Below, in pieces: positions 2,240 to 49,788 of a stretch of DNA of 64,000 bases. A model generated the notes under the pieces. It ran no database searches and had not been told where the DNA came from. It was given only the letters and a program-made list of their open reading frames with translations. The translations under genes were made by a program, and so were the position numbers. The stretch spans positions 11,248,411-11,312,410 of the forward strand of contig OZ005690.1 of the NCBI GenBank assembly GCA_963930775.1, in the 5' to 3' direction. Origin of the DNA: Cliona cf. orientalis. Lineage: Eukaryota; Porifera; Demospongiae; Clionaida; Clionaidae. How positions within the stretch are numbered: position 1 is the first letter of the stretch; each line of letters begins with the position of its first letter.

Positions 2240-3215
2240 ATGACATCTGCGGAGCCTCGTAGAAAAGCTCCATATGCAGCCGATCTTAGGTGGAGAATGG
2301 TTCAGGAGAGAATTGGGATGGAATTGCCATATCGCACCATAGCTAGCCGGAAATCTCAATGTTGCTCTGGGTACCGTGTACCACATCAACCGTCTCTTTT
2401 TAGATACTGGTGATGTGCTAGCAAATAAGCTCCCCAAAGGACAGCTCTCAGGACACTTAACCATTCTGATGAGCTTTTTATTATTGGCTTGATTATTGAC
2501 AGTCCAAGTCTGTACCTAAGTGAGCTTTGTCATGCATGCTGTTGAGGATGTATTTGGAAAGTGTATTTCTCCATCTGCATGCTGTGTGTAAAGTTATTCA
2601 CAAGCATGGATTTACTCGCAAGAAGTTGCAGCATGCAGCCAAACAGCGATCACTCCACTGAGTATTGTGGAGAGTACATGGCTGAAATTCAGATGTACCA
2701 TGCACCGTGACTGCTTTGTGTTTATTAACGAAACAGGTTGCAGTAGCAAGAATCATACATGTAGATACAGCTATGCCATGAGAGGGGAGAGGGCTGTGGA
2801 TCATAGGTGGCTTCATAGGGGTACAAGAATATCAGCTATTGCTGCTATGTCAACTTCTGGCATTTTGGCTGTAGAGCTAATGTCAGGATCAGTCAATGGC
2901 GATAAATTTTTTGATTATGTAAGAGGATCCCTAATCCCAGAAATGCTACCATTTGATGGCGAGAATCCGAAATCGATTGCTGTTTTAGACAACTGCTCGA
3001 TCCATCATGTTAGATACGTAATGATCCAATTGTTCAAATACAGCCCTGACTTCATGCCAATAGAGAAAACATTCAGTTTTGTTAAGTACTACTTGAAGGA
3101 CCACGACGACCTGTGGCAATCCATGAATGATCCAACAATTCTTATTCAAGCAGCATTCGACAGTGTGACTAGTTCACAATGCTATGGATGGATTTCAAGT
3201 AGTAGGTATCCTTAG
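2240..3215 (+). pseudogene. Decayed Tc1/IS630-type transposase (HTH + DDE_3)
   Basis: From ATG 2240 the product begins with a helix-turn-helix segment (around RTIA...VALGTVYHI) that changes frame near 2350. The longest remaining frame, 2667-3215, carries the transposase core: a block starting FINETG, then VLDNCSIHH, then YSPDFMPIEKTFSFVK. The family (Tc1/mariner-IS630, DDE_3) normally has an aspartate in the first motif; here it is Asn. The stretch between the second and third motifs is about 20 residues too short. With several frameshifts, a lost catalytic residue and a deletion, it cannot encode an active enzyme. Confidence 0.8.
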
Positions 3216-3321
3216 ATACACAAATTAAAGTCTATCAATAGCTATAATTTTTGGTAACAATAATAATTATGTACAGTCATGTATTGTATCATGCATACAT
3301 AAAAGATGAATGATTATTGGT

Positions 3322-3519
3322 TTAGAGCTTCCTAATGTCAGATAATATTATTGTTGCTTGCAACTCATCATACTGATCTTTGCTGATAGCACCACAATCG
3401 AGTAAGGCATGCCACTTTTGAAGCTGGTCAATACACTTTGACCTGATGCTGACTCTACGTCCAGGTGACGTAACTAAAGTGGCGATACTGGCAGGAGCTA
3501 TGGTATAGATGTAGTGCAA
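3322..3519 (-). pseudogene. Short ORF fragment with helical C-terminal segment
   Basis: A 65-codon minus-strand frame ends in a stretch (CIDQLQKWHALLDCGAISKD and following, closing with LSDIRKL) that reads like a short amphipathic C-terminal domain of SHOCT-like character (weak resemblance only). Upstream, a Ser/Thr-rich frame (about 3520-3570) is offset, suggesting a frameshift or an intron. I do not recognise the gene. It is probably the tail of a degraded gene. Confidence 0.3.
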
Positions 3520-3790
3520 GTGGTTGAGCTGGATGTAGTAGCTGAAGATGGAGCAGATGTAGATGCTTCATCATTTGCAGAGCTTGCATGAAGATGACTG
3601 GAAAAATCGTTCTTTAGCTAGGAGCCTGTGTGATCGAGTCATGTTTACCTATCTCTATCATATTATTATGGGCCCATGCTCTCTTCTCTGTAGAATATCG
3701 ACTGCCGTGTATTATCTATTTGTTTGTATATTTCATCCACTTTAGCCATCTTTGCAGTATGCTTATCATACTGTGAGGAACCAGGCTTAT

Positions 3791-4220
3791 TGGGCTATTC
3801 CATTTAATAGCCATACACCCCCTATGGATGACTAGTGAGGAAAATTTAACCCCTGGACATAATTAACTAGCAACCATCCCCCCTAGACGGTCGTTAATTA
3901 GGTCACTGTTCCCCCAAGACATAATTAAGAACATTACTACTCCCCCTGGATTATTAATCAAATCAAGTTTTGTTCCCCCTGGACACAAATTAATGCGTTA
4001 ATTTATGGAAGGGAAATCACCTAAAGGAGCAAAGTGCCCCCCTGGACACCACAATTAGTGATCGTTTCACCCCTAGACATAATTAAATTTGACCAAAATA
4101 CCCCCCTTCCCTTCATTAAAATCAGTGTTTTACCCCCCTGGACAAGCCTCAAAATACCCCCCTGGACATTCGTTAGCAGTCATTCATAGGGGGTGTATGC
4201 TTATTAAATGGAAGAGCCCA
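3791..4220. repeat. 430-bp TIR element filled with CCCCCTGGACA units
   Basis: The ends 3791-3830 and 4181-4220 are inverted copies of about 40 bp (TGGGCTATTCCATTTAATAG and onward, with few mismatches). The interior is an irregular series of about ten copies of a C-run plus TGGACA, often followed by TAATTA, all in one orientation at 25-50 bp spacing. I see no coding function. Confidence 0.8.
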
Positions 4221-4418
4221 TTGGATGCTTTAGCTGTGGGGGACTTTGATCTTGATCGCTTGGATCCCCTTTTACCTTGTTTATCCTTTGAGGATTCTCA
4301 GAGAGAGTTTTGCAACCAGTTTGTGGATCTCCTGGAAGAGTTAACAGGCTTTAAGAGGCAACATTTCCTTACCTGTCTGAAGGAGAGAAGATTTTCACCT
4401 TTCCCAAAGAAGTACTAG
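4221..4418 (+). CDS. Unrecognised C-terminal coding fragment
   Basis: The frame downstream of the TIR element encodes about 65 residues with protein-like composition (LDALAVGDFDLDRLDPLLPC, then an FCNQFVDLLEEL helix-like part and a basic end) and stops at 4418. It could be the last exon of a gene whose upstream part was displaced by the element insertion. I do not recognise a family. Confidence 0.3.
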   Translation: MDALAVGDFDLDRLDPLLPCLSFEDSQREFCNQFVDLLEELTGFKRQHFLTCLKERRFSPFPKKY

Positions 4419-4734
4419 TGAAAGTCTGGGTACAGATAGTCTCAACATTTCCCTTATCGGGAGATTGAACTATATTATTGCACCTGTCTCATGCCCGAGA
4501 CATATCGAGATAAAATGATTGAACGCGAACAATTTGACTAATTTATGGTTTCATTATAGACTACGTTGGTGTGATATCCATCCCAGAACATTGGTACTGC
4601 AATTATTGCAAAAGGAACACTTCATAATACAATATAATAATACTATAATAATATGTTATTCTTTCATTTTCTTGCCAGTTCCAACTTGTTATTTATATAC
4701 CCCCAGTATACATGTAGCTACTTTGAGTAGAAAT

Positions 4735-5045
4735 TTCTAGGATATTTGGTAGGGTTACCAAAGTTCATAGGATATTTGGTGTGGGGGTGTCAAAATCTCT
4801 AGGATATTTGGTAGGGGGCACCAATCAATTGAAAATCCCTAGGAAATTTGGTGTGGGGGGATCAAAATTTCTAGGATATAGGATAATAGGGCCTGGGGGT
4901 ACTAAACTTCCTAGGATATTTGGTATAGGGGGTACCAGAATTCCTAGTTCGTAAAGGGGTCCCGGGTGCCAAATATCCCAGAGGGGTGCAGAATATCCTA
5001 GGATGTATGGAATGGGGGTGCCAAATTTCCTGGGGTGCCAAATAT
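4735..5045. repeat. Degenerate minisatellite, about 35-50 bp period
   Basis: About eight imperfect units of CTAGGATATTTGGTA followed by a G-rich stretch and a TACCAAA-type stretch. Read on the minus strand it stays open (4825-5055) and gives a repetitive Pro/Ile/Leu-rich peptide with NILG/PP steps. That openness follows from the repeat and is not evidence of a gene. Confidence 0.75.
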
Positions 5046-5457
5046 ACTGTGACAATGGTAGCTACTGGTACGGAGATTGAACGGCACAGACATCAGCGTT
5101 ACGGACGGCGGTAGCTAGGAGGAGAGGATACTGGAGTGATACGTGATGGCCACTGGTGTGACAAGGGTCTGATCATGAATTTTAGCGTTATGACGACATA
5201 GGTTACATCATGCATAATTACTTAAAAAGTAAATTGCTACTGGGGAGGTCGATTTTGATTGATTTAATAGCGATCGATTGGTAAAGATCGTCAGCGCTTG
5301 TTAATTACATAGGTTTGGTCATGATTGGTCACTTCCTTATCCATATATCTGTTCCACGTATAATACAGTCTACAGTCCACAACAATATCTTGGCCAACTG
5401 TACAAGTCTTGGTGATCTTGACTCAATAACTTGATTATTCAGATAGCTACACACAGA
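5046..5457. other. Upstream region of receptor R1
   Basis: Between the minisatellite and the first exon of R1. A weak TATA-like GTATAATAC lies near 5358, about 100 bp before the start codon. Nothing else is recognisable. Confidence 0.35.
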
Positions 5458-8400
5458 ATGCCTATCAAGAAAAGGTTCAAATTTCTTATTGGCCATGGGC
5501 AGCAGCCTTCCTACTCCAACGGTTTAAATTTGATGTTAAAACTCTGGATTCTCAGCTGCTTCAATGGAGTCGCCATAGGTAATTAAATGTGTCATTAATA
5601 TTAATTATCACCAAATTATGTAAACAGGCACATTGACATTATCTCCTATGAGTGTGGCTCCAGTGTGTCGTGTTGGGGATCCACTTCAGCTGACATGCAC
5701 AGCATCTGTGGAATTTATAAGATGGAGCATCATGGTGATCAATGAGCAGGGTATAGAAGAAGAGCTAACAGCTAATATCAACTCCAGAGATCCCGCTCAG
5801 CAGATGACACAACAAGTAGTGAACTCCACTACATTCACTTTCATGAGAAGTTCCGCTCAAAATGGACCTCTGATCTGTACATTATCTATTGACTCAGTTA
5901 GCGCTGGTTTGTATGGGACACTAGTTCACTGTTTGGAGATAGGAGGCTCAATGGCATCCACTTCAACTACTATTGACATTATTGAAGTCAGTTATGGTGA
6001 GTTTTTCATCATACATCTTTATGATTTCGTGACTTACTAATTAACTATTATAGATCAGTACACTCTAACACTACAAATAACTTCACAAGATTATTCAAGT
6101 GAAAATGTTACTGTCACCGTAGAGTGGGGTCAACAAGCTGGTGCTATGTATACAGTTACAATATTGCCTATGGTACCCATCACTTCTACTGGAACTACAA
6201 GTCGCCAGCTGACAATTTCATATAATACCGAATATACCTTCAGTGTTGAAGCCATCAGTCCACTTAGTACATGTGGGATAAATCCTACTGCTTCTAAAAC
6301 ACTCAAATATGGTTAGATATATTTTATTATAGCTATTACAATAGTAGAGGTATAATAAATATATTATCACAGTTAATTGTGGATATCCAAATTTGCTTCC
6401 AAGAGTTGAGAATGCTTCAGAATCTGCACCAAGAATTGATTCAGCTTATGATGATAATGTTATACCGCTGGAGGGAACTAATATCACCTTTAGTTGTCCT
6501 CCTGGATCGGTACTCAGTGGACCTAATTTAGCAACCTGTGCAGAGAATGGACGGTGGGAACTTTATCTCAATGGGCTAACATGTGCAATAACGAAAGGTT
6601 ATTATAATAATAATAATATTATGTACATATTAATGGCACTATAATATTAATTATGCTTCCTTAAAGACCCAGAATACAATTAGCTAAAAAAATTATGGAA
6701 GATTAATAATAATATTATAGTAATTAAGGTGATAATCTGCATGAAGGTATCCTGCTAATATATGATATGGACAAACTTAATGTGTCATCAACAGATGAGT
6801 ACAGAAAAGTTCTGTATGCTAGCTGTGTAATGGTAAATAGCAGTGACTTAATTCAATTTCTATAATACTCAAAGCTTTTCTGTGCAAGTGATGCACTTCA
6901 TCAGGATGAACAAAAACAGAAATCTTAAAATAATAAAAGAAGAGGAAAAACGGATTGAGAACAAGAAAACATGACTCCAGCAATACGACAGATGTTAGGG
7001 CTATAGCTACCTTAGTCAACATACTATTTATCTCTGTTTTTCTGTTGCTGGAGTCGTGTTTTCTTGTTCTCAGTTTTCTATCTCACTCCATTTTCCTCTT
7101 CTTCTATTTAGCTAATTATGATTTCTATTTTTGTTCATCCTGATAAAGTGCATGCATCACTTGCACAGAAAAGCTTCGATGAATTGATGTATTAAAGAAA
7201 TTGAATTAAGTCATTGCTATTTTCCATTACACAGCTAGCACACAGAACTCTTTTACACTCAGTTGCTAATATAATATTATATGGACAACTCATCAACTGA
7301 TCGAGTTGTTCAAAACAAAGAAGTCCCAAATATGCAATTATGATAACATGTATGAAGTATAGTCAATTGTATATTACAGTATAATAATATTATAGTAGTA
7401 TGCCTTATCAAGGCCATGTTTACAAACAATAAAATATGAGCCATGAACTGTACTCCTGACTGCATATTACTGTAAATCCATTATAATGTTGAGCTATAGT
7501 ATCGTTATAGGTAATAGTAGGAAAATGTACTGTAATGGTTGTAAACAAAATTTTCGTTTCCTAGGATAGTATACAATAGTATTAATAAAATTAATTTTGA
7601 AAGCTGTTTATCATGTTGATCTATTTTCCTACAGCTATATCATGTACAGTGATTATGAACACTGCACCTGTAGTCTGTGGCCATCCGTTACAGGATAGGG
7701 TATCTACTCCTGATAGTGAAGGCATAGAGATCATGAATTATGTGGCTCCAGCTATAGAGGGAACTACTGTCACTTTTAAGTGCCTTTCTCAGTATGATCT
7801 TATTGGGCCTAACACCACAGTATGTATGGAGAATGGAGAATGGGAACCGGATCCTAGGGAGGTGGAATGCAAAGGTAAGGCATATGCAACAAAATTATTA
7901 ACCCTCACCACAAAGGGGGTAGTAAATTTTTACGATGATAATAGTACAATCGCTTGGCGATTTTTGTCCATCCACCCTGTGTTAACTGGTATACGGATCG
8001 TCTAAAAGAAAGTAGACTCGGCATAAAAGAATATTAAGTGGTGTAGTATAGTGTGCAGCTGTTGCTAGCCATGGTGTTACCTCAGCTACACGACTGATTG
8101 CCATAATATGGCATTCTGTGTACGCTTTGCTGGTCAGTTGTCAATGCAGTGGACAGTCACGAGTGTAAGCAGGCAGTGGCTCTCATGTACATAATTCAAT
8201 TCACAGAGGCTTTCAGTTTATAAAGTGACATATAGCCAGGTGCCACTCCCCTACTCCTAGATCATGCACTAACTCTGAAGGGATTCGAACAGTACCATCC
8301 TCTACCAGAACTCTATTCAGGTGCAGGGTATGTACAATGTTAACATCCTGTCATAGTGAACAAGCATACACAGTGAGCCATGCTATACACGCATGGGAGT

Positions 8401-12100: not shown

Positions 12101-15100
12101 GGATCTGGAAGCTCGAGTGTTCAATTGGTGCTTGAATACAACAGTGTTTACAACCTCAGTGTTGTGGCTGTTAACGTTGCTCCTTGTGTGGGCCATACTG
12201 AAATCAGCTTCATTGCACTAAATTATGGTGAAGGCATAATTTTTCCGCCCTTTCATGCACACACAATCGTGCACATCTTAGAGGAGCATCATGAGTCAGA
12301 CCACTGATCACTAGAATAAGTTATTATAGTGTTAGTTGACCTATAAATAATATAATACTGGGTCTGCTATGTAGCTCGTATGTAGATTCTATAGAGGCCC
12401 GGGCTATAATATGAAAATACAAGTACAGATCCAATATTATCCATTTTGGAAAATATCTTTGATTTCAACATTAGTTCTAATCAAAGAAGTTTTGTTTTCT
12501 TGGGGAAATTCAGATGACTCTATTGTTTCTCCAGCTAATTGTGGATATGCCGAGTTGTCACCACCGGCCAATGATTCTGTCCCAGCACTTGAAGCCTTAG
12601 GTGATAGTGACCTACCAGTTCAAGGAACTACCTTCACTTTCAGGTGCCCTCCAGGATGGGTACTTATGGGACCTAATTCAACAACTTGCACTGAGACTGG
12701 AGAATGGGAACCTGACCCTAGCGAAGCTATGTGTATGGGTAAATCAGGTATGGTGAAACATTTCAAGTTCTATATAATAATAATAATATTATGTAGTTGC
12801 ATGTGAGGATCCACTTCAGAATCTCAGTCTGTCCACGGGAATGCGACTTTCCTTAGACGTTCAAGACCACCGTGAGCCAGCTACTGTAGGAACAACAATC
12901 TCATTCAATTGCTCACGGCCTGAGAAAGTATTAATAGGACCTAATATTATGGTAATATGTATGGATGATGGACAATGGGAGCCAAATCCTCATCAAGTCC
13001 AGATTAGTTATAAAGGTAATTAAATAATTAATTTAGATTCATTAATAGTCTAAATTTATCCTATTTATGGAACCAAGAGTAAATCTTTCTCACTTATTGT
13101 GAATAGGGAAATTAGCGCTTACTTCAACAACAGTATTATTATTAATAATCATGTCAAAATTTTCCCTCCCAATTCTATTGAGATGTAAAACCAGTGTTCC
13201 AACATCATCAATTAAAGGTTTATACTAACTACCTGCAGAACATTAACCATTTATAAGGCAATGTATACATAGCCAGTAGATAACAACAATTATGACATAA
13301 TACGTACAATGTCATGGAAAACTATAATAATTGTTGCGTTTACACACAGTATCATGTGATGCACCCAAGGCTGATGAAACTGTACATTATTTGACCAACG
13401 ACTCCATAACCCTGGAAGGATCAAATGTTACCTATTGGTGCAGCACTGATGTTCAATACGATATTGTATTCACCTCTGTGTGTTACAAAAATGCAAGCTG
13501 GGCTCCAGATCCTATCAGTCAATGTGCTGCTCTCCAATCAGGTAGACTAAAGTATGTATAAAAAAGGGCTTATCGAACCACGGGATAGAGAAGTGCTTAG
13601 TTTAAGCTTACAACATTGACTCTAAAATTTAATGTTGGTGGATGGCCTGATATAATACAATAATATTATGTGGGAGACGGCGAACAATAATGTTATTAAG
13701 ATTTTTAGTATTGAATTCTAATTAAATTCTTGTATATAGGTGAAGAGGGATTGGATATTGTCAGATCTTTGAAAATTGCTGGTGGTCTCCTTGAAGCATT
13801 GGCAGTAATCTTGTTGATACTTGTAACCGTAGTTGGGAGTGTTTTTTTTTTTTTTTTTTTTTTTTTTTTTGTCTATAATATTTTCTGATGCTTGAAAAAT
13901 ATACATCAGTGGTGTACATGAATAGCTAAAGCTAATACTGGCATGACACCATACAAATAACTAGTAAGGTAAATAATATTATATTAATAACATAAATTAA
14001 TAATAAGTTTGGGTTATAATAACTGTTTAAATGTGTAAAATGACAGGGCAGTTTGAGTATTTGTAGATTGAGAATTCCATAAAGAGATGGAGTGAGGAAA
14101 GAAAGAGTACAGAAACTGAGAAGTATTTGCTCTGATATTCTCTAATGTGAAGTCGGTGACCTGCCTAGTGTTGTAGGCAGGTGATTTGACTTGGACAGGA
14201 GCTGACTGGCAATCTGTCAAACCATGTACGATTTTGTAGAGATGGCAAAGTTTTGCTTGTTCACGACGCTCAGCAAGTGATGGGGTTTCTGCTTGAACTA
14301 ATAGCTGTTGGTAAGGGCAGGACCAATCTCTGAAGCACATGCGCAGAGCAAATTTTTGTGTTTGTTCGAGAGACTGGATGTCCTTGGCAAGGTATGGGTC
14401 CCATACGACAGACGCGTACTCGAGGTGAGGTCGAATAAAAGTCTTGTACAGTCTGAGTGCAGTTTCAGGCGCACAGAGATGAAACTGGCGATACAAGAGA
14501 CCTATGAGTCTGCGAGTTTTAGAGCAAATGGTGGTTATATGAGATGACCACGACAGATCACATGTTAGTTGGATACCCAGATACTTGACAGACTTAACTT
14601 GTGTTAAAGCAGTACTAGTGTTCGAATCGATATAGAGAGTTGGTGGTGGGATAGAACGAAAACGCTTACGAGATATTAACATGAAGCAGCATTTGTTGGA
14701 GTTAAGTTGAAGGTGGTTGCCAGCCACCCATGTCGAAATGGCAGTAATGTCCGACTGCAGTACGATGTAGTCTCAGGCCGGTGAGGAGATTGTGCGGTAG
14801 AGCGTCATGTCGTCTGCAAATAGCGTTAGTTTGCTAGGAGCAGACATGAGAGAGGTGACATCGTTGATGTATACGAGGAAGAGGAGGGGTCCCAAGACAG
14901 ACCCCTGTGGTACCCCTGAGATAACTGGCACGCTAGAAGATTGATCCCCTCCTACAGCAACAACTTGTGATCTGTTCGCAAGATAGCTTTGAATCCATGT
15001 TAGCACGTGTTTGTCAAGTTGAAGGTTTGTTAGCTTATTCAGAAGAGGAACGTGGGGTACAGTGTCAAACGCTTTGCGGAGGTCGAAATACACCGAACAG

Positions 15101-17928
15101 ATTTCATTACCATCGTCGAGTGACTTCAGACAGTCGTGAATCAGTGTGCAGAGGGCGGAAACAGTTGAGCGGTTGGGCATGAATCCCCATTGGTGAAGGG
15201 ATATTGGAGAGTTAGTAGCCAGGAAATCGAACAGAAGTGTATAGATATGGCGTTCAAGCACTTTACTCACGATGGGCAATATGGAAATTGGGCGATAGTT
15301 AGAGGCTAAAGCGGAGTCACCAGACTTGAAGATCGGTGTGATCCGAGCGCACTTCCAGTCCGTCGGAAAGCGCCCGCTCGCGATCGACAAGTTGAATAGT
15401 TTCGTCAGACTCGGTGCGATAAGCACAGCGGTTGACCGCAGCATAATGGCCGATATTTTATCGGGTCCGGTGGATTTTGCAGGATCGAGGCTCAGCAGTA
15501 GGTCCGTGACCTCTTCTTCAGTGCAGAGGAGGTGCGGGGGACATTTGCTTGGATCGAGGCGGGTTGGTTCGGTCAGAGGACAGAAGGAGTCGTTGAAACA
15601 ACTGTAAAAGAATTCGTTAAGTAGTAACGCTTTGTCCGAGTTGGAGGTCGCAAGAGTCGGTCCGTTCTTCAGGGCCGGGATTGAGCTTTCTTGTCTCCGG
15701 ATTAGCTTGACTGCTTTCCAAAAGTCTTTTTGAGACGAGTGACCTAGATTGCGAAAGTATTTAGATTTACTTGTCCGTAGCATGGCAACAACTCGGTTTC
15801 TTACACATTTGTATTTTGTTACAGCAGCTTCCGTCTTCGTCTTGCTGGCGGCACGAAATAGCGTGTTCCTTTTCCTCATCAGCTGAATGATGGGTTTTGT
15901 TAACCAGGGTAGATTCTTTCGCGGCTTTAGAGTCGAGCTTGGTATGCACAAGTCCATAATACGCATGAATATGGAGCGCCATGTTGACCAGCACTCATCC
16001 ACGTCTGCATTCAGAAAGACTGAGTCCCAGTCGATCTCGGCAATCATATCGAGGGCCAAATTGAAGTCCGCATAATCGTATCTCCAGATTTTCTTAGCCC
16101 TTCTTATAGGGACCGGCTTAGTCTTGAGATTTTGTAGCGAGAACAGGATCCCATTGTGGTCGGAGTTGGCTAGTGGGGGCAGAGTTTCGCATGATGATAA
16201 GGCCTCAGGTGACGACAGAAAAATTAAGTCAATGAGAGAATTAGAGCAGTGGGTGGGTGAAGTAACAACTTGTGTGAGACAGAAGCTAGAAGTAACCGTA
16301 TGCAATTTAGAAAACAAAGGGTGAGTATTGTCTAAAAAATTAACATTAAAGTCTCCCATGAGTACAAAATTAGAAAGTAACAGGGTTTCAACATGGGTAA
16401 ACAGAGTGGTTAAAAGAGTATCAAAAATACCATAAGGGCTACTGGGAGGTCTGTAAAACAGGGCTATAGTTATGGGTGTTACTGTTGTAAAGATAGAAAC
16501 AATTAAGAGTTCAAGGTCAGGTGAACCAGAATACAAAATGTTATGGCTATAGCATGTATTAACATAAATTAGCACTCCACCACCATGTCTATTTCGATCC
16601 AGGCGAATTATTTCATAGTCCTGAATACGTAATTCACTGTTTAGAATATCAACATTGGTCCACGTTTCTACGATACAGATAATGTCGGGTGTGTATAGAG
16701 CACAGGCAACACGGAGGTGGTCAATTTTGGGCAATAGGCTGCGAGCATTAAAGTACAGAACAGAAAATTTAGGCAAGTAGGGCGTGCAGGAGGTTGATGG
16801 AGGGGGAGCAGTTACGTCACCTGGTGTGGTGACTGAGCCATTGAAAAAGAATGGTTTATGTCAAGTTGAGATGGGGTGGTAGACTGGGATTGCACATCTT
16901 CGATTGCTGCTGGAGCTTGAGCACTATCGTTCGACTCGAGATTGGGAAGGGTTGTGGATGCAGCAGTTAAGTTGGGTGCATTGTTGGAGGTAGAAGGGGT
17001 TTGCAATACACTATCACTCGGTTTGGTGCAAGGCTCAAGTTTCCAATTTGTCTGTAAAGAGACCTTATCCCATTCACCTTCTAACTTGCATAACAGGGGC
17101 TCTGTTCCTTTGAGTAGAAACCACCATCGGTTAGTATCAGATCTAGTTTTTTTGCGTACCAAGATCTGATTCCCAACCGTGGTCAGTTTCTGCAGGGTAG
17201 AGGCAACTGCAGTAGTTGATGTAGCCTTCAGAGTCCCCCATACTCTTCTCACTCCCTCTACTGGTACCCTTTCTCGACTAGTACGAGCTGGAATATCAGC
17301 ACTGTGCGTAGCGGTCGTATCGGTTGGCTCGGATGGACTCGGAGTCTGGTTGCTTCGGTTCGCGTCTTTGTTCGTCAGATTGCGGTGGCGAGCTTGTTGG
17401 GCTGGCCTGCGAGCGGCTGCCTTCGAAGCGTAGGTCGACTTTGCCGGAGGTCTGTTCGAGCGGAGTGACGAAAGTTCCGAGGTTGCGGCAGCCAGGGTCT
17501 CCTTTAGCTGCTTCACCTCCAATTTCAGCGCTTCGACAGCGTCCGTTAATGCAGTAGCGACGCTGAGTTCACCATTTGCATAATAATAATTAGTGATAAT
17601 CACTAATAAATAACATGACATTGTCAAAAATACAGAAATAGAATCTGATCTTGTTTCAGAATCAGATGTTGCACTTCACCAGCCAGAATTGGATCCATCA
17701 GTTGTCAACGAGTGTCCTCCACCAATACCTCCCAAGAAAATACAATACCATGATTTTCCTGAAGATTCAAAATGTCATCAAGTATATGCATGGCCTCAAA
17801 TTGTATTGTCATTAGCATCTATTCACATTACTTATCTGTATCCATATATAGAATCTGACATAAACTTCCAGCACAGGATCCGGAGGATCTATCAATGCAA
17901 CTTCACTGATTCATTATTAAAGACATAA
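9113..17928 (+). CDS. Receptor R2: Ig-FN3-CCP-CCP-CCP-TM, interrupted by a LINE
   Basis: Exons 9113-9188 (leader), 9257-9649 (Ig), 11955-12227 (FN3), 12535-12738, 12797-13015 and 13350-13541 (three CCP), TM exon from 13740, and a last exon 17660-17928. The TM exon (SLKIAGGLLEALAVILLILV) runs straight into T29 at 13842-13870, the probable 3' tail of an antisense LINE. No consensus donor remains, so a functional transcript is doubtful. The Ig exon stays open, but about 28 residues in the middle (from about 9441) are in a different frame from the paralogues. The second CCP lacks its last cysteine (ends QISYKG). The last exon encodes PPPIPPKKIQY, a class II SH3-type motif. Probably a recently damaged paralogue of R3. 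Confidence 0.65.
9684..10121. repeat. Foldback MITE in R2 intron 2
   Basis: Arms of about 120-140 bp (9705-9823 and 9963-10093) are near-perfect inverted copies containing TAGGGATGGCAGTGCCAAAA and AACAAGGTTTGTAGGGATAA. Outer ends are GGGTGCC... / ...GTGCCCCC. Non-coding. Confidence 0.85.
10518..11190. repeat. Inverted-repeat element in R2 intron 2
   Basis: Arms 10521-10604 and 11092-11186 are inverted, sharing GCAGACCCTTCCTTCC, GATGCAATACATCCA and GGGAGGGGTCTGGATTCGAG. The interior is richer in GC than its surroundings and contains no convincing gene; the ORF 10494-10751 is a by-product. Confidence 0.8.
11191..11954. other. Rest of R2 intron 2, with a GAAA microsatellite
   Basis: An (AAAG)n run of about eight units lies at 11696-11728. 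The remainder shows no gene. The FN3 exon of R2 starts at 11955 after GGTATAG. Confidence 0.6.
14014..16776 (-). pseudogene. LINE ORF2: AP endonuclease + reverse transcriptase, one nonsense codon
   Basis: The N-terminal APE-type endonuclease shows FNARSLLPKIDHL, CIVETW, GGGVLIYV, FYRPPSS, GDFNVNF and SDHNGILF. The reverse transcriptase shows NYRPISILPIVSKVLERHIY, FDLRKAFDTVPH, GVPQGSVLGPLL and the catalytic FADD. The frame is broken by a single TGA at 14773-14775, just after FADDMTLYR. It then continues in the same frame for 237 codons to 14014 (KYLGIQLTCDLSWSSH, LRLYKTFIRPHLEYAS). No other damage is seen, so the insertion looks fairly young. There is no ATG at 16776 (TTG there), so initiation would need ORF1-linked recoding or a start further upstream. 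Confidence 0.85.
16812..17575 (-). CDS. LINE ORF1 (coiled-coil protein)
   Basis: Minus-strand frame ending at 16812. The N-terminal part is a predicted coiled coil (VEALKLEVKQLKETLAAATS) followed by a basic, Ala/Arg-rich segment. A middle conserved-looking block (GNQILVRKKTRSD, WWFLLKGTEPLL) and a Ser/Thr/Pro-rich C-terminus follow. ORF1 proteins of LINEs bind the element RNA. The frame is open to 17627, but the most upstream residues probably come from flanking DNA. It ends in a frame different from ORF2, which is open upstream of its first clear motif, so the two overlap slightly. Confidence 0.7.
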
Positions 17929-18173: not shown

Positions 18174-21100
18174 ATGACAGCAGGTCGGACTTATTTCGGT
18201 GCATGGAAGTCTTTGCTCTTCTTCAAAACTACTTTTATTCTGCCACTGCTGGTTCTTGGGTACTTTGAAGGAATTGTGACAGGTATGGTCTGGCAACTTA
18301 TAATTTGGTATAGAGAGGAACTGGAGCATTAATTAGCCAATGTGCATTAATTTGCCAGGTATGGTGATATTATTATCTCCTATGAGTGTGGCTCCAGTGT
18401 GTCATGTTGGGGATCCACTTCAGCTGACATGTACAGCTTCAGTTGAGTTCATGAGGTGGAATATTTTACAGTCTAATGAACAAGGCATATTAGAAGAAGT
18501 TGCTAATGCTCAAATCAATGCCAGAGATAGCATGCAGATATCACAAAGAGAAGTGGATTCTGCCACTCTCACTTTTATGAGACTTTCTGCTCAAGGAGCT
18601 TCACCTCTAGTCTCTACATTATCTATTAACTCAGTTAGCATTGGTTGGAATGGAACAGTAGTGAACTGTTCAGATGTAGAAAATCCAATGACATCAGCTT
18701 CAAGTACTATCCAAATCATCGACATCAGTCAAATCAGTGAGTTAATTAATCAGTCACACTAATAATATTATTATTGTCCATAATTCCATGTTATTTAACG
18801 ATTTGATAGGTATCCAACATACTCCAGTCTTAAGTATTTCAGAAGAATATCAGGCTGATAATGTCACAGTCACTGTAATATGGGCCCCTGCTGAACTGAT
18901 GGATGATATCACATTTGCCACCAAAGTGTCACCTTTGGTGCCCATAATATCCATAGGAAGTACAAGTCGTCAGCTAATAATTTCATACAACACTGAATAC
19001 AACCTCAGTGTTGTAGCTGTTGCACCTTGTGGAAATGCTACTGCTTCCAGAATACTGAATTATGGTGAGATCTCATGATCAATAATATTATGAGATTCTA
19101 TAGCTATACAATTATATATTAAACCAATTATTGTTGGCTTGAATCAGTCCTGTGCATCATTGCACTTCGGGGCATATTGCTACATGGCCGCTTGATCTGG
19201 GCCAGTAGCCAGGTTGTTGGGGGGAGGGTTTATGTGCATAGTACATGGCATTGCTTTGCAATTGAGTCTATTAAGTGTAACATTAGCATGTAGCATGCTT
19301 TTCACACATGCTTAACAAACTCTATTCTTGCAGTATACCGGTATTATCTGCCTGCCTAACATACGCCTGTATATAACCACACAAACGTAATACAATGTCA
19401 TGATCTGATGTTCCTCTTTTTCTCTAGCTAATTGTGGATCTCGATCTAGAGTTACTCTTGTTGTTGTAACTATATAGCAATAACTCTGTCCCAAGTATTA
19501 TAGCAGATTTCAACTTTCTTTGGGCTCAGATTGTACTTAGGTAAACTCTAAAACCACATCTGCTCCAAGGCTTATGGAGTACTTGTGGTGTAGTGGTCTG
19601 CTCTTAATTATCTTTTCTGTATTCCTAGTCATGCAGTTACTGTGTAGTGAGCTGAAATCTACTAGCCTCTACCATCCCCTATAGGCTAGGCTATAGCTAG
19701 AAATATAGAGGCTAGAGGCTAGAAATGTACTGTGTTTGCAATACAGTAAATCAGTATTATTGAAGAATTTCATTTGTGCTACAGTTGCATGTGAGCATCC
19801 ACTTCTGAACGTGTCCTTGGAATCATCATTAAACGTTATGGATTACAAAGAACCAGCTATTAATGGAACAATGGTTTCCTTCAACTGCTCTCAGCCAGGA
19901 GAGGTATTGATAGGGCCTAGTACAGCAACTTGTATGGAGGATGGACTGTGGGTACCCAATCCAGATCAACTCCATGGGAACTGTAAAGGTATATACCCGG
20001 TAATAATATTATAGCAAACTGTTTTCAGTACTACTCTCTCTCTCTCTCTCTTTCTTCGCTCCCCCTCTCTCTCCAAAAAAAAGATGTTTGTGAGTAGTGC
20101 CATTTTCTCCCCTAGGCCTCCCAACTGCAATTTGAGATCAATAGCCAATGTACCAAACTTCTTGAATTAATGTTTGTTACCCACTTCACATTAACTATAG
20201 TAACAAACCTATATATAAAGTTTTAAAAAACTAGAACCTCCCTACTCAAATACTGTTTACAGTGTCATGTGGCCCCCTCGATGAGACTAACGAAAACGTG
20301 ATTTTTTCAACCAACAACTCCACATTGGAAGGATCAACAATTTCATTTCGGTGTATGAATGAGCTAATGGGAACTGACGTATTCACGTCTAGATGCTTCA
20401 GGAATGCAAGCTGGGTTCCTGATCCCATCAGTCAGTGTGCTGTGGATGGAGAGAACGGAATATCACACAAGTCTTAGACTGTGGCGATTACTGGTAGTCT
20501 TTTCGGAGTATTGGCAGCCATCGTGTTGCTACTCTTAGCAGCTGTAGTTGGGATCGTTATTTTTGTCAAAAAAGGTGCTCAAAATTGAACCGTATAAATA
20601 CCAGTATATTCTAGATACAATTAATCCGTAAATTTAAATGTCTCTGCAGGCTCACTTTGGAGATCACACAGAAGGAACATGGCGTAAATAATTATCATAT
20701 TATTATCATCATAGTGATCAATGTTTGATTGCCTAATTCCCATGATTTTCCATAATTCTATTTCACGCAAAACAATCAGTCTTTGATACCAAATTTTCAT
20801 GAGAAATATTGAATATGTTAAAGCCTAGAATGAGACTAGTTCTAATGTTGCAGGTATAATTTTGAACTTCACAAGAAATACAAGCATACTGTTCACGAGC
20901 AGCAAAATGAGGTATGAACTATACGCAGCTGTTTATGCATCATGGTATACTTCTCATACACAATCATTATGATACCGTATAGCGGGAAACTTTCGAGGGA
21001 GAAAACATTCACGGATTTCGCGATTTTTCAGCCATCCGTGAAAGTTTTCTCCACGAAATTCTAGGTACGCCACACCCATCATGCAACCAGTTTTAACATT

Positions 21101-22042
21101 CCACGAAAGTTTTCTTGGCAAAATGCTCCTTTCCTACCGATCTGTAAAAGTTTTCTCCCTCGAAAATTTCCCGCTATATGATAATCTTTTCCTGTAGGAC
21201 ATAAAAGATGATGTTGTGTATGCTGTGTTAGGCCCGCTTTCCAGTAATCAGTCACAAAATCTAAAGACTTCAATATTAAACTTTGATGAGAGCAGGGTGG
21301 AGTATGCAAAGATTAACTATAATGTTACTGTGCCACAAAATCCTGTACCTATTCCATCAGTGGAAAAACCAGCAAAATCTGACAAAGGTAGCTAGATTCT
21401 CTACTCAGGCCATGCAATAGCTACATTCCTAGGTTTCCATAATTGATTGAAAACACTAGGAATGGGCCTGGAAACAATGTTTGATGTGATTTCAGTGGAC
21501 AATTGAAGCTTAGTCTAGCTAATTAGGCAATATTTTTCCTGACCTGCAGACATGTTGTTGAATCTCGACAATCTGCTGATTCAGCTAAAAGATAAGATCA
21601 CTGAGAAATGGCACCAGTTTGGTGTTGCTCTTGGAGTAGAAAAGGAGATACTGGATCAATATCTCAAATATCCTCCAGAGCAGAGTATCATGGAAATGCT
21701 GGACCACTGGTTGAGGAGTTGCGATCTTGAGGAACGGAATTGGAGAGATGTGGCAAAAGCTTTGAGACAAATCGGACATCATCAGCTGGCTAAGGAAATT
21801 GAAAGCATTGATAAAACAGGTCATGATTTTGCATGCTATATAATATGGTAATCTGTGCAGGAATACATCTACTTTATTCTTCTTCCAACTGAATACATGC
21901 AGAACCTGATGATGTTCAAGGTAATGTGCTTCAAAATGCACCGCCAGAGTCAGATCCAGCCATCAACAAGTCTCCACCGACAAAGGATTTCAAAGATATC
22001 AGTAACCCTGAAGACTTTCAGCATGGAGATTTCATTAGGTAG
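18174..22042 (+). CDS. Receptor R3: Ig-FN3-CCP-CCP-TM-ITIM-ITIM-Death domain
   Basis: Exons 18174-18282, 18359-18736, 18810-19064, 19785-19988, 20263-20441, 20478-20574, 20650-20683, 20854-20911, 21198-21387, 21550-21819, 21903-22042 (1914 nt, 637 aa). Order: leader, Ig (37-162), FN3 (163-247), two CCP (248-375), TM helix (VLAAIVLLLLAAVVGIVIFV), short linker exons, then an exon with VVYAVL (Tyr446) and VEYAKI (Tyr474), both fitting the ITIM consensus. A Death domain follows (about 502-591: LLIQLKDKITEKWHQFGVAL, IMEMLDHWL, NWRDVAKALRQIG). The CCP2 exon reads into the TM region across an in-frame TAG (20475), so the model needs a 36-nt GT-AG intron (20442-20477); otherwise a soluble protein results. 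Likely a membrane receptor coupling an ectodomain to phosphatase-type and Death-fold adaptors (inference). Confidence 0.75.
19428..19478 (+). pseudogene. Relic CCP exon in R3
   Basis: After a good acceptor (TTTCTCTAG) the sequence CTAATTGTGGATCTCGATCT matches the start of the first CCP exon of R4 and R8 (ANCG...). It diverges within 50 bp and meets a stop. R3 therefore lost a third Sushi module. Confidence 0.6.
20978..21178. repeat. MITE with TATAGCGGGAAA termini
   Basis: Inverted ends TATAGCGGGAAA...TTCGAGGGAGAAAA and TTTTCTCCCTCGAAAATTTCCCGCTATA. The interior repeats the AAAGTTTTCTCC motif. It lies in the R3 intron and ends about 20 nt before the acceptor of the ITIM exon. Confidence 0.85.
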
Positions 22043-35150: not shown

Positions 35151-38100
35151 TTATTTCTTCGATGGTAATGGTAGTGGTAATTTTTGATGTTTGCTGCTAT
35201 CTGCACCTTGTCCTGTTTGAGGATCCATTGATCCAGGACCGGGTGCTGTATCTTGCTTTTTCACAGGAACTATTGGTTGTTTATTAGAATCCTTCACCAC
35301 TGGATCAGGTCCTTTTTTAGGATCAATTGGTGTCTTAATATCTTGCTTCTTCACTGTTGGCTGCTTATTGTCAGAGGGTGTCTCTAACTTTTCACGGGTG
35401 TCAGCTTCAGGAAATTTACCTTAATGTATTACAGTCATGAATAAAATTTCATCAACAATGCAAAATGCTAGAAGCTGTCATTTTCATTATTTATACTTTA
35501 TCAATATCCTTGTCTACATGTCCGGATCTATTTCCAGCTACACTGCATCACATGATACTGAAAGCTGGGAATTGAGTGCGGATGGACCCTAGCCAGGATT
35601 CTATTTCGAAATTTTGGTTTGGGGTGGAAGGAGCGTGGCACTTTCACACACAGTCCCCTCTCATTAATTGGGATTTAAGTGCAACATGGTGTACTCTTTG
35701 ACATTAATTTAGAAGAATGCTATTTGCATAGCACCCGAATAGTACACGTTCCCCAACTCGATCCTCCCTCTCTTCTTTTGGGGGAGAAGCTGGGTGCTTT
35801 TGGGGGAGGGGGGAAGCTTCCTCCTTGCCCCCTATAGATAGAACCCTCCTAGATGGGACCGGTACCAATAGGTGGGAATGGGCTGGGGACGAGGGATATG
35901 ACCCAGCATACCATATGTACCATGTAACCGTTATCTAGCAACTCAGGCTAGCCACAGGCATGCAAGTTTCACAGGAAAAAAAGTGTGTTTACAACCATTG
36001 TAATGTAGAAATTTACAGCCAATTTGCTATCCTTGAAATTTTTTGCAACCTATGTATTTCTGAAATACAATAAAAATACAATGTAGGAGAAATCTGTAGG
36101 CAATTATCACTGATTACATCCTGATTGACACATATTTTACAATGATTGTACATTGACTCTACAATCCATGTGTTTTAAATTACAACAATTTTACAATGTT
36201 CAGAGCTCTTGTGCCAAAATACAACCATCGTATTGGTACAATTTTGTTAAAATTTAGCAATGTAAAAGTATTGTATTTTTGGTAAATTTACATCAAATTT
36301 GGATGATATTGCAATGGTTGTGAACTGAAAATTTTTCCTGTGTTTACAGCATTAACCACAACGTGGCTGCATGTGTATCTGCATTATGTGTCTAGGGCTC
36401 CCTTCATTTCTTACTTCACGATTGTGATTGATGTTCCTAGAATCATCCGCAGGCCCTTAATATTTTAAATATCTTGTGCAATGCGGACAAGATCGGAGAG
36501 CTTGGAGATAATTATAAGACTAAACAGGGCCGGTGGAACCGGTCCGGTTGCTCCGGTTTTGGCCGGACCATTTTTCAGCTATAATAATCACTCAATAACA
36601 TGCAGTTTCACTTTCTGCCGACGTAGTCTCTACGTCAATCAAAAATCGTCGAGGAGAATAGCTAACTACTAAACATGCCAACGTACGACGCGCACGATCG
36701 ATCCGCACCCAGACTCCACCTTGGGACGCGCGATAGGTTAGGGGGTGGGGTCTGGGGATGAGAATTAACTTAATCGATCGAATAGCAGCTGCACGTGCAC
36801 GAAAGTTGGGCATTGGATAATAGCAAATACCGGTATGGCGCTTTAGTGAATAATAGTGATTGTGATTTATTAACTGTAGTGCCAAATAGTTTGTCTCTAT
36901 GACAGTTTTTGTTATAATAATAATATTATGCATTTAAATTTCTTTTCAATAATGAATTAGCTATTAATTTTGTGAATAAAGATAGGCATGGCCTGACCAA
37001 TGTAAACTTGCTTCCACCGGCCCTGCTAAATGATGCACCAGTTTCCTCTCAATAATAATTATTGTAGGGTATATCTCACATGACTAGCTAGCATAGGCGT
37101 AGGAACCATGGGGGCTCCGGAGCTGGTGCCCCCTATGGTTTCTGATAGTTACATAGCTAGGTACAATTTTATACACACTGATCATACTGCTCTACTTGCC
37201 TATCATAGTTATTGACCAACTCCCAAGGTTTGTATGCAGTATAGAAGCACAAATCCCGAGGGCAAAGCCTGAGGGATGAGTGCTTCTATACTGCATACAA
37301 AGCAAGGGATTGATCAATAACTATTTTCTAGCCCATTGTTTCCATGGATACAATAAACATGTTTTTAGCCCCAAGAACTGTATGATTGTTTGCTCTGGCC
37401 CTCAGGAACTGTATAATAGTAAACATATGGACATGAGCCCTACAAGGAGGGACTGTATCACATATAGCAGTACCTTGTATACCTTAGTAACCACATAGCA
37501 ATGGGCTAGAAAGATCTATAGAACTCCCCTTTACCAAACCATCATCCTATCCCTCTGCTACGTAGCTAGCATGGAATTTCTACCTGTTTTATAGATCTGA
37601 ACAACATCCAGTGCTAGCTCATGAAAGTTGATAGACTTCAGCACGTATGCCACGTCCCTCCAGGTGATCTTTTCGTCAGAGTACTTCAGCCAGTAGTCAA
37701 GCACTTCAACGATGCAGTTCTCTGGGAAACAGGTCTTAGCGATGCTGTCCAGTACCACTTCATCGATTTCAATGGCCTCTCCGAACTCTCGCCACTTTGG
37801 GCCAACTTTATCCCGCAGTAGAACCACCAGCCTGTTCAGAGTGACATCAAGACTATTGTCTATGTGTGCATGTGTGTATGTACATGTATGCATGTTTACC
37901 CCGCGCGCATGCGCAAGGGGTAAAGCAATCGGTTTGTATGTCTGTTGTTGTTGTTGTTGTTGTTGTTGTAGTTGTCGTCGGCACGAAAATCGCCAGATCT
38001 CGAGTTCTAGGCGTCTGTGCGTGTTGTAAGCACAACCAATCGATAGATATCGGTGAAAAACTGGTTTGTACGCGCTTCGAATTGCTCAAAAAGGCTTACT

Positions 38101-42560: not shown

Positions 42561-45492
42561 ATGGTAGAGAAAACTCATTCCGTGCAGCAAGTCCTGGCGT
42601 CAATAATTCACTTCACTCTATCATCATGGATGACTTACAGAATTTTGATTATTAGCTGCTGGTGTGAATTAGGAGCAATAGGTGAGAATATTGAAAAATT
42701 AGTGCTACTACAATGTTCTACAGTGGTTCAATCACTTTTATTAACTTATAATTATTTTCTTACAGGTCAGTTGACATTTTCTCCTATGGAGGTGGCTCCA
42801 GTGTGCCGTGTTGGGGATCCACTTGAACTGACATGTACAGCATCAGTAGAATCCCTCCAATGGAGCCTGACGGTGGTCGATGAACAAGGGAGGGATGAGA
42901 ACATTCTCATGTTTATTACTGCTAGTGCTCCTTCTCCTCAACCACCACCAATTACAGTGAATTTTACCACATTCACTTTAAGAAGAATTTCTGATCAAGG
43001 AGCTTCACCTCTGGTCTCTACGTTATCTATTGATCCAGTTAGCATTGGTTTGAATGGAACAGTAGTGAACTGTATGGACGCAACAAGTTCAATGACACCA
43101 TCTTCTGAATCAACTACTATTCTCATAATTGATATCAGTATGCAAGTTAACTACCCACTTAATAACTTACCATCTTAAATTAATATTATGTTCATTGTGT
43201 TCATTAGACCAATATATCCCAAGATTGCAAGTTATTTCTGAAGACTATTCACCAGATAATGTCACAGTGACTGTGGCATGGACTCAACAGGCTGGGGCAA
43301 TGTACGATATCGGGATAATACCACCGGCGCCCATTGTGTCTACTGGAAATGTGAATAGCCAGCTGACAGTTATTTATAATACTGAATACAATTTGAGTGT
43401 GGTGGCCTTCACTCCTTGTGGAAACACCACTGCCTTCATCACACTACTTTATGGTAAGGCATTATTCAATACCGTGTGACACACAATGAACTATCATATC
43501 ACTGGCACAATATCAAGTATAACTACTACTCTCATTCTGTAGCTAATTGTGGACATCCAGATCTAGAGTCACTGTGTACGATTACTAATTGTACTCCAAC
43601 AATCGTTATCGAGAGTAATGAGGTTTTACCAATAGAGGGAAGTACTGTCACCTTCAGTTGCCCTCCTGGACTGGTACTCACTGGACCCAGTTCAGCAACC
43701 TGTGCAGGGAATGGAGAATGGGAACCTGACCCAAGCCAGCTCATGTGCAATAAATCGAGTGGTTAGCACTGTTAAGATAATAATAATATTATGAAGTGAC
43801 ATTATTTGAAGTTGCTTTCTGTATACATAATAATATAATTATATAGAAACAAAGATTCTCTGAGGACAACTTAACTGTTCGACGAGATCAAGTTTAATTT
43901 TAGTTCTCCATAAAGAATCTATGTTTCTACTGTTAAGATAGTTGTCTGCCAGCAACATTCAAAGGGTGCCTACAGTCAGTACTTATCATGATGTGTTTTA
44001 AAATGGAGGAAGTGTTTATTAGGAGTCATGTCATTGAGGCTTTCACTGTCTCTAAAAGTTAATTTGAAGTATGCAAACTTAGGTACATCAGCCAATTCAA
44101 CGCACCTGTTACTGGCATGTTAAATATACACTTTGGTTGTTCTATTTGTATAGCTAGCGATTTAGAACATTCTATGTTTAAATAATAAACATAATCATTA
44201 TGAATTGATCAAATTTATGATCAGATTCATGTTTATTTGGATAGTAATCAAGACTACAGTACTAGACTGTGATAATAATAATTAGCTACAGATGCCCCCT
44301 TGCTCATATCTTATAACTTAAAAAACTGAAATTTGATGTTAGAACAGGACTACATAATATCAAGGGCTTAAAGAAGCCCTTGATAATAATTATGTACTAT
44401 CAACAATTAGTTTCTCTCTCCTTATCTTACAGTGATTTGTGGCCACCCGTTCCAAGACAGGGTGTCTGTTGACGACTCAGTGATAATCAGGGGTTATATG
44501 GAACCATCATTGGAGGGAGCTGTTCTTTCCTTTGCTTGTCCTCCTCAACATGTTCTTATTGGACCTAATACCACGACATGTACGGGGAACGGAGAATGGG
44601 AACCAGACCCAAGGGAAGTGGAATGCAAAGGTATTATGCTATGCTATAGCTAAGTACAGTCGTCTAAGAGTTCAGGTTCACATGTACATGCATGTAGAGT
44701 ACATCATGCCATATTGATCTATCTATGGCAATATCATTAGGTTTAGATCGTAATAACACACAAGATCTAGAATCAAGAACCTCACACGAAATACTAACAG
44801 CAGCAGTATCATCCTCAGTGGTGGCATTTCTTGTGATATCTGTTTTGACTTCAGCTACTGGAGTAGCTTGTGGTTACTACTTCATAATATTGAGACGAAG
44901 ACGCAAACAGTCTTCTTTATCAAATCAGCCTATGCCTCTGTATGAGGATGTGATCTTGAATGTATTGCCCCAAGCTAGTGCTGTGGAGCACCAGGAACTT
45001 CAACAAGGTCTTGAGTTGAAAGAAAATGCGGCATATGGAACAGCAAAGCCTACAGACCAAGCTACAGACCCTCTGCATCATGAAGCACTACTTAGTGCTG
45101 TGGAATACCACCTGGAACAAGGGCTGGAGTTGAGAGAAAATATGGCATATGGAACAGCAAAGCCTACAGACCCTCTGCATCATGAAGCACTATCTAGTGC
45201 TGTGGAATACCACCTGGAACAAGATCTCGAGTTGAAAGAAAATGTGGCGTATGGAACAGCAAAGCCTACAGACCCTCTGCATCATGAAACACTACCTAGT
45301 GCTGTGGAACGCCACCTGGAACAAGGGCTGGAGTTGACAGAAAATGTGGCATATTATGGAACAGCAAAGCCTACAGAGCGTCTGCATGAGGATAATATGA
45401 ATGCACCACCTAGTTCTATGGAGCACCAGGAACAAGGTCTCAAGTTGAAAGAAAATGTGGCATATGGAATAACAAAATCTATGACTCACTAG
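42561..45492 (+). CDS. Receptor R8: Ig-FN3-CCP-CCP-TM, tail with five ENxAY repeats
   Basis: Exons 42561-42681, 42766-43137, 43208-43453, 43543-43761, 44433-44630, 44741-45492 (1908 nt, 635 aa; ATG 42630 is an alternative start giving a more typical signal peptide). Ig 41-164, with a proline-rich insert (SAPSPQPPP); FN3 165-246; CCPs 247-385; TM around SSSVVAFLVISVLTSATGVA with an RRRRK-type stop-transfer. The 200-residue tail has PLYEDVILN, then five copies of a unit of about 34 residues centred on LELKENVAYGTAKPTD, each with an NxAY tyrosine motif. R8 is head-to-head with R7, 151 bp between start codons, so they may share a bidirectional promoter. Confidence 0.85.
44998..45480 (+). repeat. 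In-frame coding tandem repeat (102-bp unit)
   Basis: ENxAY motifs at about 45024, 45138, 45240, 45342 and 45456 are spaced 114, 102, 102 and 114 bp apart, always in frame. Units differ by a few bases. The same unit occurs twice in R9 and three times in the R10 region. Confidence 0.9.
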
Positions 45493-49400: not shown

Positions 49401-49788
49401 AAGATCTTCACATGTACTACTAACAGCAGCAGTGTCATCTACAGTAGTGTTTCTGATGATATCCGTTCTGACTTTAGCTACTGGAATAGCTTGTGGTTAC
49501 TACTTTGTCAGACAAAGACACAAACAGTCATCTTCATCAAGTCAGCCTACGGAGCCTCTGTATGAGGATGTGATCTTGAATGCACTACCCCAGGCTAGTG
49601 CTGTAGAACACCACCTGGAACAAGGTCTCGAGTTGAAAGAAAATGTGGCGTATGAAACAGCAAAGCCTACAGACCCTTTGCATCATGAAACACTACCTAG
49701 TGCTGTGGAACACCACCTGGAACAAGGGCTGGAGTTGACAGAAAATGTGGCATACGGAACAACAAAATCTATGACTCATCAGTGTTAA
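46473..49788 (+). CDS. Receptor R9: Ig-FN3-(decayed CCP)-CCP-TM, two ENVAY repeats
   Basis: Exons 46473-46566, 46671-47033, 47102-47362, 48745-48954, 49391-49788 (1326 nt, 441 aa). The start at 46473 is chosen because it is conserved in R10 and R11; an in-frame ATG lies at 46419. The Ig domain (LTLECKSS, LEWNVYV, RINCTE) and FN3 domain (ATVILEWIQE, LYNTSYHATIVA) form a subtype distinct from R1-R8. A CCP exon at 48450-48622 has lost its Trp and last Cys and is 173 nt long, out of frame; skipping it keeps the frame. A further CCP relic (GEWEPDQ) is at 49234-49275. TM (STVVFLMISVLTLATGIA) and tail with PLYEDVILN and two ENVAY units. Confidence 0.7.
47610..47760. repeat. Foldback MITE in R9 intron
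   Basis: TAGTTAGACACTGTTTAGTC / CTAAACAGTGTCTAACTA, with inner GGTTTCTACGT / ACGTAGAAACC and TTTAGAAGAC / GTCTTCTAAA. Confidence 0.85.

Follow-up and report, generated by a model that had tools for sequence, protein, structure and literature searches.

The window analysed here is a stretch of 64,000 nucleotides from the sponge Cliona cf. orientalis (GenBank assembly GCA_963930775.1, contig OZ005690.1, positions 11,248,411 to 11,312,410, forward strand); positions given without a contig or locus are those of the window. At 18174-22042 (+) lies R3, a gene that is read here, on balance, as a disabled copy of a genuine and expanded sponge receptor family. Intact members would be type I membrane proteins with an ectodomain of immunoglobulin (Ig), fibronectin type III (FN3) and Sushi domains, followed in the cytoplasmic part by a conserved, putatively phosphatase-docking motif pair and a Death domain. 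The paired motifs of intact members, mostly [ILV]xYAx[ILV] and 22-31 residues apart, resemble immunoreceptor tyrosine-based inhibitory motifs (ITIMs) and precede the Death domain.

Structure of the R3 gene

R3 consists of ten exons on the forward strand; all junctions are GT-AG, the phases are compatible, and the frame closes at a normal stop. Given the R3 protein, in which X replaced the interrupting stop described below, a splice-aware aligner written for this analysis recovered identical exons. The exon limits of an earlier note, made from the sequence of the window alone, were correct throughout. Exon 1 (18174-18282) holds the start codon and a signal peptide, the latter recognised by eye, and has a similar exon in the paralogous loci L029 and L033. 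Exon 2 (18359-18736) encodes an Ig V-like domain, exon 3 (18810-19064) an FN3-like domain, exon 4 (19785-19988) Sushi (complement control protein) repeat 1, and exon 5 (20263-20574) Sushi repeat 2 together with the transmembrane helix, the last from Pfam and the alignment of paralogues. Exon 6 (20650-20683) is a basic juxtamembrane segment, near-identical in L029 and L033; exon 7 (20854-20911), a further juxtamembrane segment, and exon 10 (21903-22042), the C-terminal tail with the normal stop, follow from the gene model and the paralogue alignment. Exon 8 (21198-21387) contains the ITIM-like motifs VVYAVL and VEYAKI, and exon 9 (21550-21819) the Death domain.

An in-frame TAG is found at 20475-20477, in the interval between Sushi repeat 2 and the transmembrane helix. 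The nearest paralogues over 20263-20700, L029 (92% identical) and L033 (90% identical), have a sense codon at this position, yet each is broken elsewhere. Removal of the stop by splicing was considered and rejected: a 36-base GT...AG stretch spans the TAG, but its bases are coding in both paralogues and an intron of that length was judged too short; larger introns would cut Sushi repeat 2, and no search was made for an alternative transmembrane exon. As assembled, R3 could at most give a soluble Ig-FN3-Sushi-Sushi ectodomain, or be null. The earlier note had described R3 as a receptor with an Ig-FN3-Sushi ectodomain, tandem ITIMs and a Death domain; this architecture holds for the family, not for R3 itself, whose TAG had been overlooked.

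Two further differences between copies were noted. The intron before the ITIM exon of R3 contains an insert resembling a miniature inverted-repeat transposable element (20973-21183; inverted 44-base arms, 86% complementary), which is absent from L029 and L033. Sushi repeat 2 and the transmembrane helix share a single exon in R3 (20263-20574), L029 and L033, and occupy two exons in R2-type copies (13350-13850), a difference that apparently arose when the family gained or lost an intron.

Domains of R3

Pfam PF00531 (Death) matches exon 9 with 28.4 bits in the whole tail and 31.5 bits in the domain alone (cut-off 22.6), so that the Death-domain exon, named beforehand in the earlier note as a point on which its proposal could fail, passed. 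By profile comparison, FADD (E 0.022) is the nearest solved structure, followed by Fas (E 0.11); each match is weak, and unrelated proteins have similar E-values. Death is the sole Pfam match above cut-off in the R3 tail (about 230 residues); neither ZU5, a feature of UNC5 netrin receptors, nor TIR, a feature of sponge Ig-TIR receptors, was found in that scan.

The Sushi repeats are matched by PF00084 on two stretches (28.4 bits summed, cut-off 20.7). Sushi alone was found in the Pfam scan of the R3 ectodomain exons, with no TNFR cysteine-rich repeats and no match in the Ig and FN3 exons. Among the nine window copies, the Ig exon gave weak Pfam matches to Ig_3 in two (best E 0.045), to Lep_receptor_Ig in one and to ig in one, each Pfam family being counted separately; the FN3 exon matched fn3 in one of nine (E 0.014). 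AlphaFold models were each built from nine window rows. The Ig model reached a predicted local distance difference test score (pLDDT) of 84.7, with three of five models above 84, and was matched by Foldseek to Ig V-type domains (E 2.9e-4, probability 1.00, template modelling (TM) score 0.56). The FN3 model reached 89.6 in the best of five only (other four, 57-72); its Foldseek matches to Ig-like/FN3 sandwiches were weak (best E 6.6e-3; TM score 0.74 to an 8d7e chain, CNTFR alpha with Fabs), and none fell at E <= 0.001. The models support an Ig V-like fold for exon 2 and, less firmly, an FN3-like sandwich for exon 3. For the ectodomain and the structure predictions proposed in the earlier note this means that Sushi stands by Pfam, Ig by the model, and FN3 by the weaker model, with no R3 Pfam match for the last two. 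The family combines an Ig-fold ectodomain with a single-pass membrane protein; transmembrane segments were recognised by eye in the paralogues, and in R3 the stop precedes the helix.

The motif pair and the receptor family

VVYAVL and VEYAKI both fit the ITIM-like pattern, and their tyrosines lie 28 residues apart, as the earlier note had stated. When the R3 tail of 232 residues was shuffled 20,000 times, at least two ITIM-like matches arose in 1,106 cases, which makes the pair only mildly unusual; it is more than chance because the motifs are conserved across the family. The DNA upstream of the Death exon was examined in 29 loci: R3 and R6 in the window, 13 long loci (L028-L040) and 14 short ones (L058-L071), the latter reaching back by roughly 1 kb. 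The pair is present in 25 of the 29. R3 and the long loci were mostly obtained with a query containing the ITIM exon and are therefore a biased sample; the short loci were picked mainly by Death similarity, and 11 of the 14 carry the pair. A motif profile made from 14 of the 25 pair-bearing loci also detected the remaining 11, among which L066 (30.0 bits) and L069 (28.9 bits) diverge most.

The first site has I/L/V at -2 in 22/25 loci (I/L/V/M in 24/25) and I/L/V at +3 in 25/25; the second has V/I at -2 and I/L/V at +3, each in 25/25. Alanine stands at +1 in 22/25 and 24/25 of the first and second sites, respectively, and the tyrosines are spaced by 22-31 residues across the 25 loci. The strict pattern [ILVS]xYxx[ILV] is fitted by 22 of the 25 first sites (the other three have M, M and C at -2) and by all second sites, so that the family has in its tail the conserved motif of ITIM-bearing inhibitory receptors. 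A third ITIM-like motif (IVYADV, IVYTDV) was seen in an extra exon-like open reading frame (ORF) upstream of the ITIM exon in L034 (locus positions 6963-7091) and L035 (6804-7052).

The family was searched for with a typed consensus of Death exons. Among the best 150 of 496 candidates, which were scored, at least 91 Death-exon matches reached 70 bits or more, on nine contigs; 45 of the 91 lie on contig C2 within 2.9 Mb (11.03-13.89 Mb). When 17 Death exons of the family were scanned with Pfam, 16 matched Death at E <= 1 (best 4.6e-8). Comparison of the whole R3 protein with a set of 5.8 billion proteins, which may hold few sponge proteins, gave no match at E <= 0.001 among 7,998 scored candidates.

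Sixteen copies (R3, L028-L040, R2 and R4) were aligned exon by exon. Seven (L031, L032, L034, L035, L036, L037 and L038) are free of stops and frameshifts over the exons from Ig to Death; L031, L032, L034 and L035 lie at C2:11.03-11.34 Mb. Seven is a count that excludes the extra Sushi exon of some copies, which lay outside the alignment queries, and that is possibly too high, as the aligner may bypass a stop through a small false intron. Doubtful mini-exons occur in parts of L034, L036 and L037 and also in L039 and L040; the last two, which aligned poorly (L040 with one stop), were left out of the open count. R3, L028, L029, L030 and L033 are broken. R2 has frameshifts in the Ig exon and ends after the transmembrane exon, beside a long interspersed nuclear element (LINE); for R4 (22690 on) no tail was found, and past the first Sushi it was fitted by chance mini-exons alone.

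Ratios of nonsynonymous to synonymous substitution (dN/dS) were 0.07-0.49 for the Death exon (28 pairs), 0.06-0.63 for the ITIM exon (24 of 28 pairs giving a value) and 0.35-0.87 for the Ig exon (15 pairs); the ranges overlap, and the copy sets differ from exon to exon. Because values are lower in the Death and ITIM exons than in the Ig exon, the intracellular part is taken to be conserved and the extracellular part variable. L033 is a mosaic, in which Ig and FN3 exons of another subtype (locus positions 1165-1916) are joined to Sushi, transmembrane and tail exons of the R3 type (2665-6024), and this suggests that ectodomain exons have been exchanged between copies, or that gene conversion has occurred.

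Candidate signalling partners

A gene at C8:9936138-9938107 has two SH2 matches followed by a protein tyrosine phosphatase (PTP) match, in that order; its second SH2 domain and linker match PTPN11 at 6e-62. It is called SHP-2-like on the strength of its SH2 half and of gene order. On C4, too, SH2 matches have PTP matches nearby (7.45 and 7.51 Mb). DED domains gave 65 matches in the genome at E <= 0.001, and on C9 and C10 a few kb separate DED from Death matches. Of the partners that the earlier note had proposed to look for, a tandem-SH2 phosphatase candidate and DED domains were found, whereas a FADD orthologue was not identified. PTP matches were further seen clustered on C15 (1.17-8.29 Mb) and SH2 matches on C7 (1.9-2.1 Mb) and C12; the sponge genome seems rich in tyrosine-phosphorylation genes.

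Surrounding sequence and mitochondrial DNA

Neighbouring Ig-FN3-Sushi genes at 44698-45492 (+) and 49342-49788 (+) have another tail, in which the transmembrane segment is followed by repeats such as ENVAYGTAKPTD; the ORF at 44698-45492 gave no Pfam match at E <= 0.01. Neighbours that share an ectodomain and differ in the tail recall paired receptors. A LINE-type element (14014-17675, -) lies between the transmembrane exon of R2, which it adjoins, and the start of R3; in Pfam, its ORF (14773-16860) is recognised as reverse transcriptase (97.6 bits) with endonuclease (45.5 bits). Cytoplasmic exons of R2 were not found. The receptor array is flanked by an ORF of DDE_3 transposase type (2592-3215, +; 52.5 bits) and a C2H2 zinc-finger ORF (56774-57442, +; 68.1 bits).

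The mitochondrial contig C149 (19,633 bases) carries cob, atp9 and an NADH dehydrogenase subunit (nad4 by protein and place); the tRNA-Thr and tRNA-Pro genes lie in the gaps between these or overlap them. On C111, two equal-scoring atp9 matches lie 19,633 bases apart. In the excerpted text of PMC2444032, atp9 is given for the mitochondrial DNA of all demosponges studied except Amphimedon queenslandica. The mitochondrial genes found here support a sponge as host, most probably a demosponge.

Interpretation and alternatives

In the mechanism that we propose for intact members, ligand or cell contact would cluster the receptor, a Src-type kinase would phosphorylate both tyrosines, and the phosphorylated pair would dock the tandem SH2 domains of the SHP-2-like phosphatase. 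The docked phosphatase would restrain signalling by the adjoining Death domain, which, if unrestrained, would nucleate Death-fold adaptors. We infer both the inhibitory sign of the ITIM pair and the Death-fold assembly.

Several observations weigh against this reading. The R3 frame is interrupted at codon 387 of 650, in exon 5, so that R3 as assembled cannot make a membrane protein, and its subtype has no whole copy among three: R3 has the TAG, L029 a stop as well as a frameshift in the Death exon, and L033 a frameshift in the Ig exon. Besides the possible excess in the open count, the four open copies other than L036-L038 were tried for a signal exon, and a candidate emerged in L031 alone. 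The pair was not found in the DNA examined upstream of the Death exon of L063, L064, L065 and R6; the Death exon of R6 (37582-37845, -) scores 21.5 bits, just below the Pfam cut-off, and is preceded by poly-Q in the same ORF. On the side of the partners, the PTP segment of the C8 gene taken alone matches LAR-type receptor PTPs (3.5e-46, two stretches summed) better than PTPN11 (7.6e-34), and a DED-Death gene was not established on C9 or C10, just as FADD was not.

The main rival to phosphatase docking, which we hold to be unlikely, takes the motif pair as endocytic sorting signals read by AP-2, on a Death-domain receptor with regulated internalisation. YxxI/L/V is also the AP-2 consensus, and every one of the 50 motifs in the 25 pair-bearing loci fits it, a further point against docking. 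AP-2, however, needs neither a hydrophobic residue at -2, nor alanine at +1, nor a fixed spacing, all of which ITIM/SH2 docking does need; the hydrophobic -2 position (I/L/V/M in 24/25 first sites, V/I in 25/25 second sites), the alanine and the spacing of 22-31 residues favour SH2 docking, short of proof. If docking is granted, the sign of the signal could still be the opposite one: the pair might recruit SHP-2 as a positive component, beside a non-apoptotic Death domain of NF-kB type, and the family would then consist of activating receptors. Several Death-domain proteins, MyD88 among them, are not death inducers, and this fits such a receptor; we nevertheless give it a low probability.

The stop of R3 likewise admits more than decay. 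R3 might be a functional soluble receptor, its complete Ig-FN3-Sushi-Sushi ectodomain secreted as a decoy, since the stop falls just past the last Sushi repeat and ahead of the transmembrane helix, with everything upstream open. We consider this quite improbable: a stop with introns downstream is expected to lead to nonsense-mediated decay, five introns follow the stop of R3, and the same would apply here if that process works in sponges as elsewhere; moreover, the two other copies of the subtype are broken at other sites, which points to decay. The stop might instead be polymorphic or specific to this assembly, with an open receptor on other haplotypes. For this it can be said that the exons beyond the stop keep the frame and show no other break and that dN/dS between R3 and L033 is 0.31 in the ITIM exon and 0.28 in the Death exon; a search of the assembly with the R3 exon region, on the other hand, gave seven matches (itself, 92%, 90%, and others at <=82% over shorter parts) and no near-identical second copy, and we regard such a haplotype as improbable. 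As L029 and L033 carry breaks of their own, the R3 subtype looks decayed, and R3 is best placed as a disabled member of a family of tandem-ITIM Death-domain receptors.

A wider reading, which we put forward as doubtful, would make the 2.9 Mb stretch of C2 a sponge immune or allorecognition complex: an Ig-FN3-Sushi array evolving by birth and death, with a phosphatase-recruiting tandem-ITIM brake and a Death trigger on one chain, and with neighbours that have the ectodomain in common but bear a tyrosine-repeat tail, in the manner of the paired innate immune receptors of vertebrates and tunicates.

Comparison with known receptors

The Alr receptors of Hydractinia have Ig-like ectodomains in a clustered locus and, to our knowledge, neither Sushi nor Death domains. 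ITIM and ITAM (immunoreceptor tyrosine-based activation) motifs are described for Hydractinia candidate allorecognition genes (PMC12065747; this and the papers below are cited from excerpts of their text). TNF-family death receptors (Fas, TRAIL-R) share with the sponge family a transmembrane receptor with a cytoplasmic Death domain, and Fas is weakly near by profile. They have a cysteine-rich TNFR ectodomain, whereas the sponge family has Ig-FN3-Sushi and a separate ITIM exon. TRAIL-R is described as binding SHP-1 through its Death domain (PMC10967194).

Vertebrate tandem-ITIM receptors (LILRB, SIRP alpha) have, as in the sponge family, an Ig ectodomain and ITIMs in the tail. Their motifs are tandem [IVL]xYAxx; we know of no Death domain and no Sushi repeats in them. 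For LILRB, the Ig ectodomain and tail ITIMs are given in PMC11999971. Sponge Ig-TIR receptors and an Ig-CARD gene of Dysidea avara also join Ig to an immune signalling domain, but with TIR or CARD in place of Death; the Dysidea gene, with Ig domains and CARD, is differentially expressed (PMC6208332, in which ITIM has no occurrence).

The fester co-receptors (FcoR) of the fuhc locus of Botryllus schlosseri are described as type I proteins with Ig and Sushi domains and with tails that may bear ITIMs or hemITAMs, forming a one-locus family (PMC12065747). They resemble the sponge family in being type I, in the Ig and Sushi ectodomain, in the ITIM-type tail and in forming a gene family; their order, however, is Ig, Sushi and two C2-type Ig domains without FN3 in the excerpted text (PMC12065747), against Ig-FN3-Sushi-Sushi with Death in the sponge, which thus lacks the FcoR architecture. 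The term 'death domain' has no occurrence in PMC12065747. The earlier note knew of no standard receptor class with both features, and among the matches listed from the open-licence literature, seen in excerpt, there was indeed no receptor in which an Ig/Sushi ectodomain is combined with both ITIMs and a Death domain; ITIMs with Ig and Sushi, however, are already described in Botryllus. What appears new here is the Death domain in an ITIM receptor, and the host phylum Porifera.

As argued in the excerpts of a 2025 review, ITIM/ITAM signalling is the point on which allorecognition converges, from cnidarians to mammals; the excerpts also note that the candidate allorecognition proteins are not conserved between sponges, cnidarians and ascidians (PMC12065747). 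Conserved ITIM pairs in a sponge family, together with a SHP-2-like phosphatase in the same genome, would extend ITIM signalling to Porifera, and a receptor that bears both a Death domain and motifs of inhibitory type gives testable partners and a candidate gene complex.

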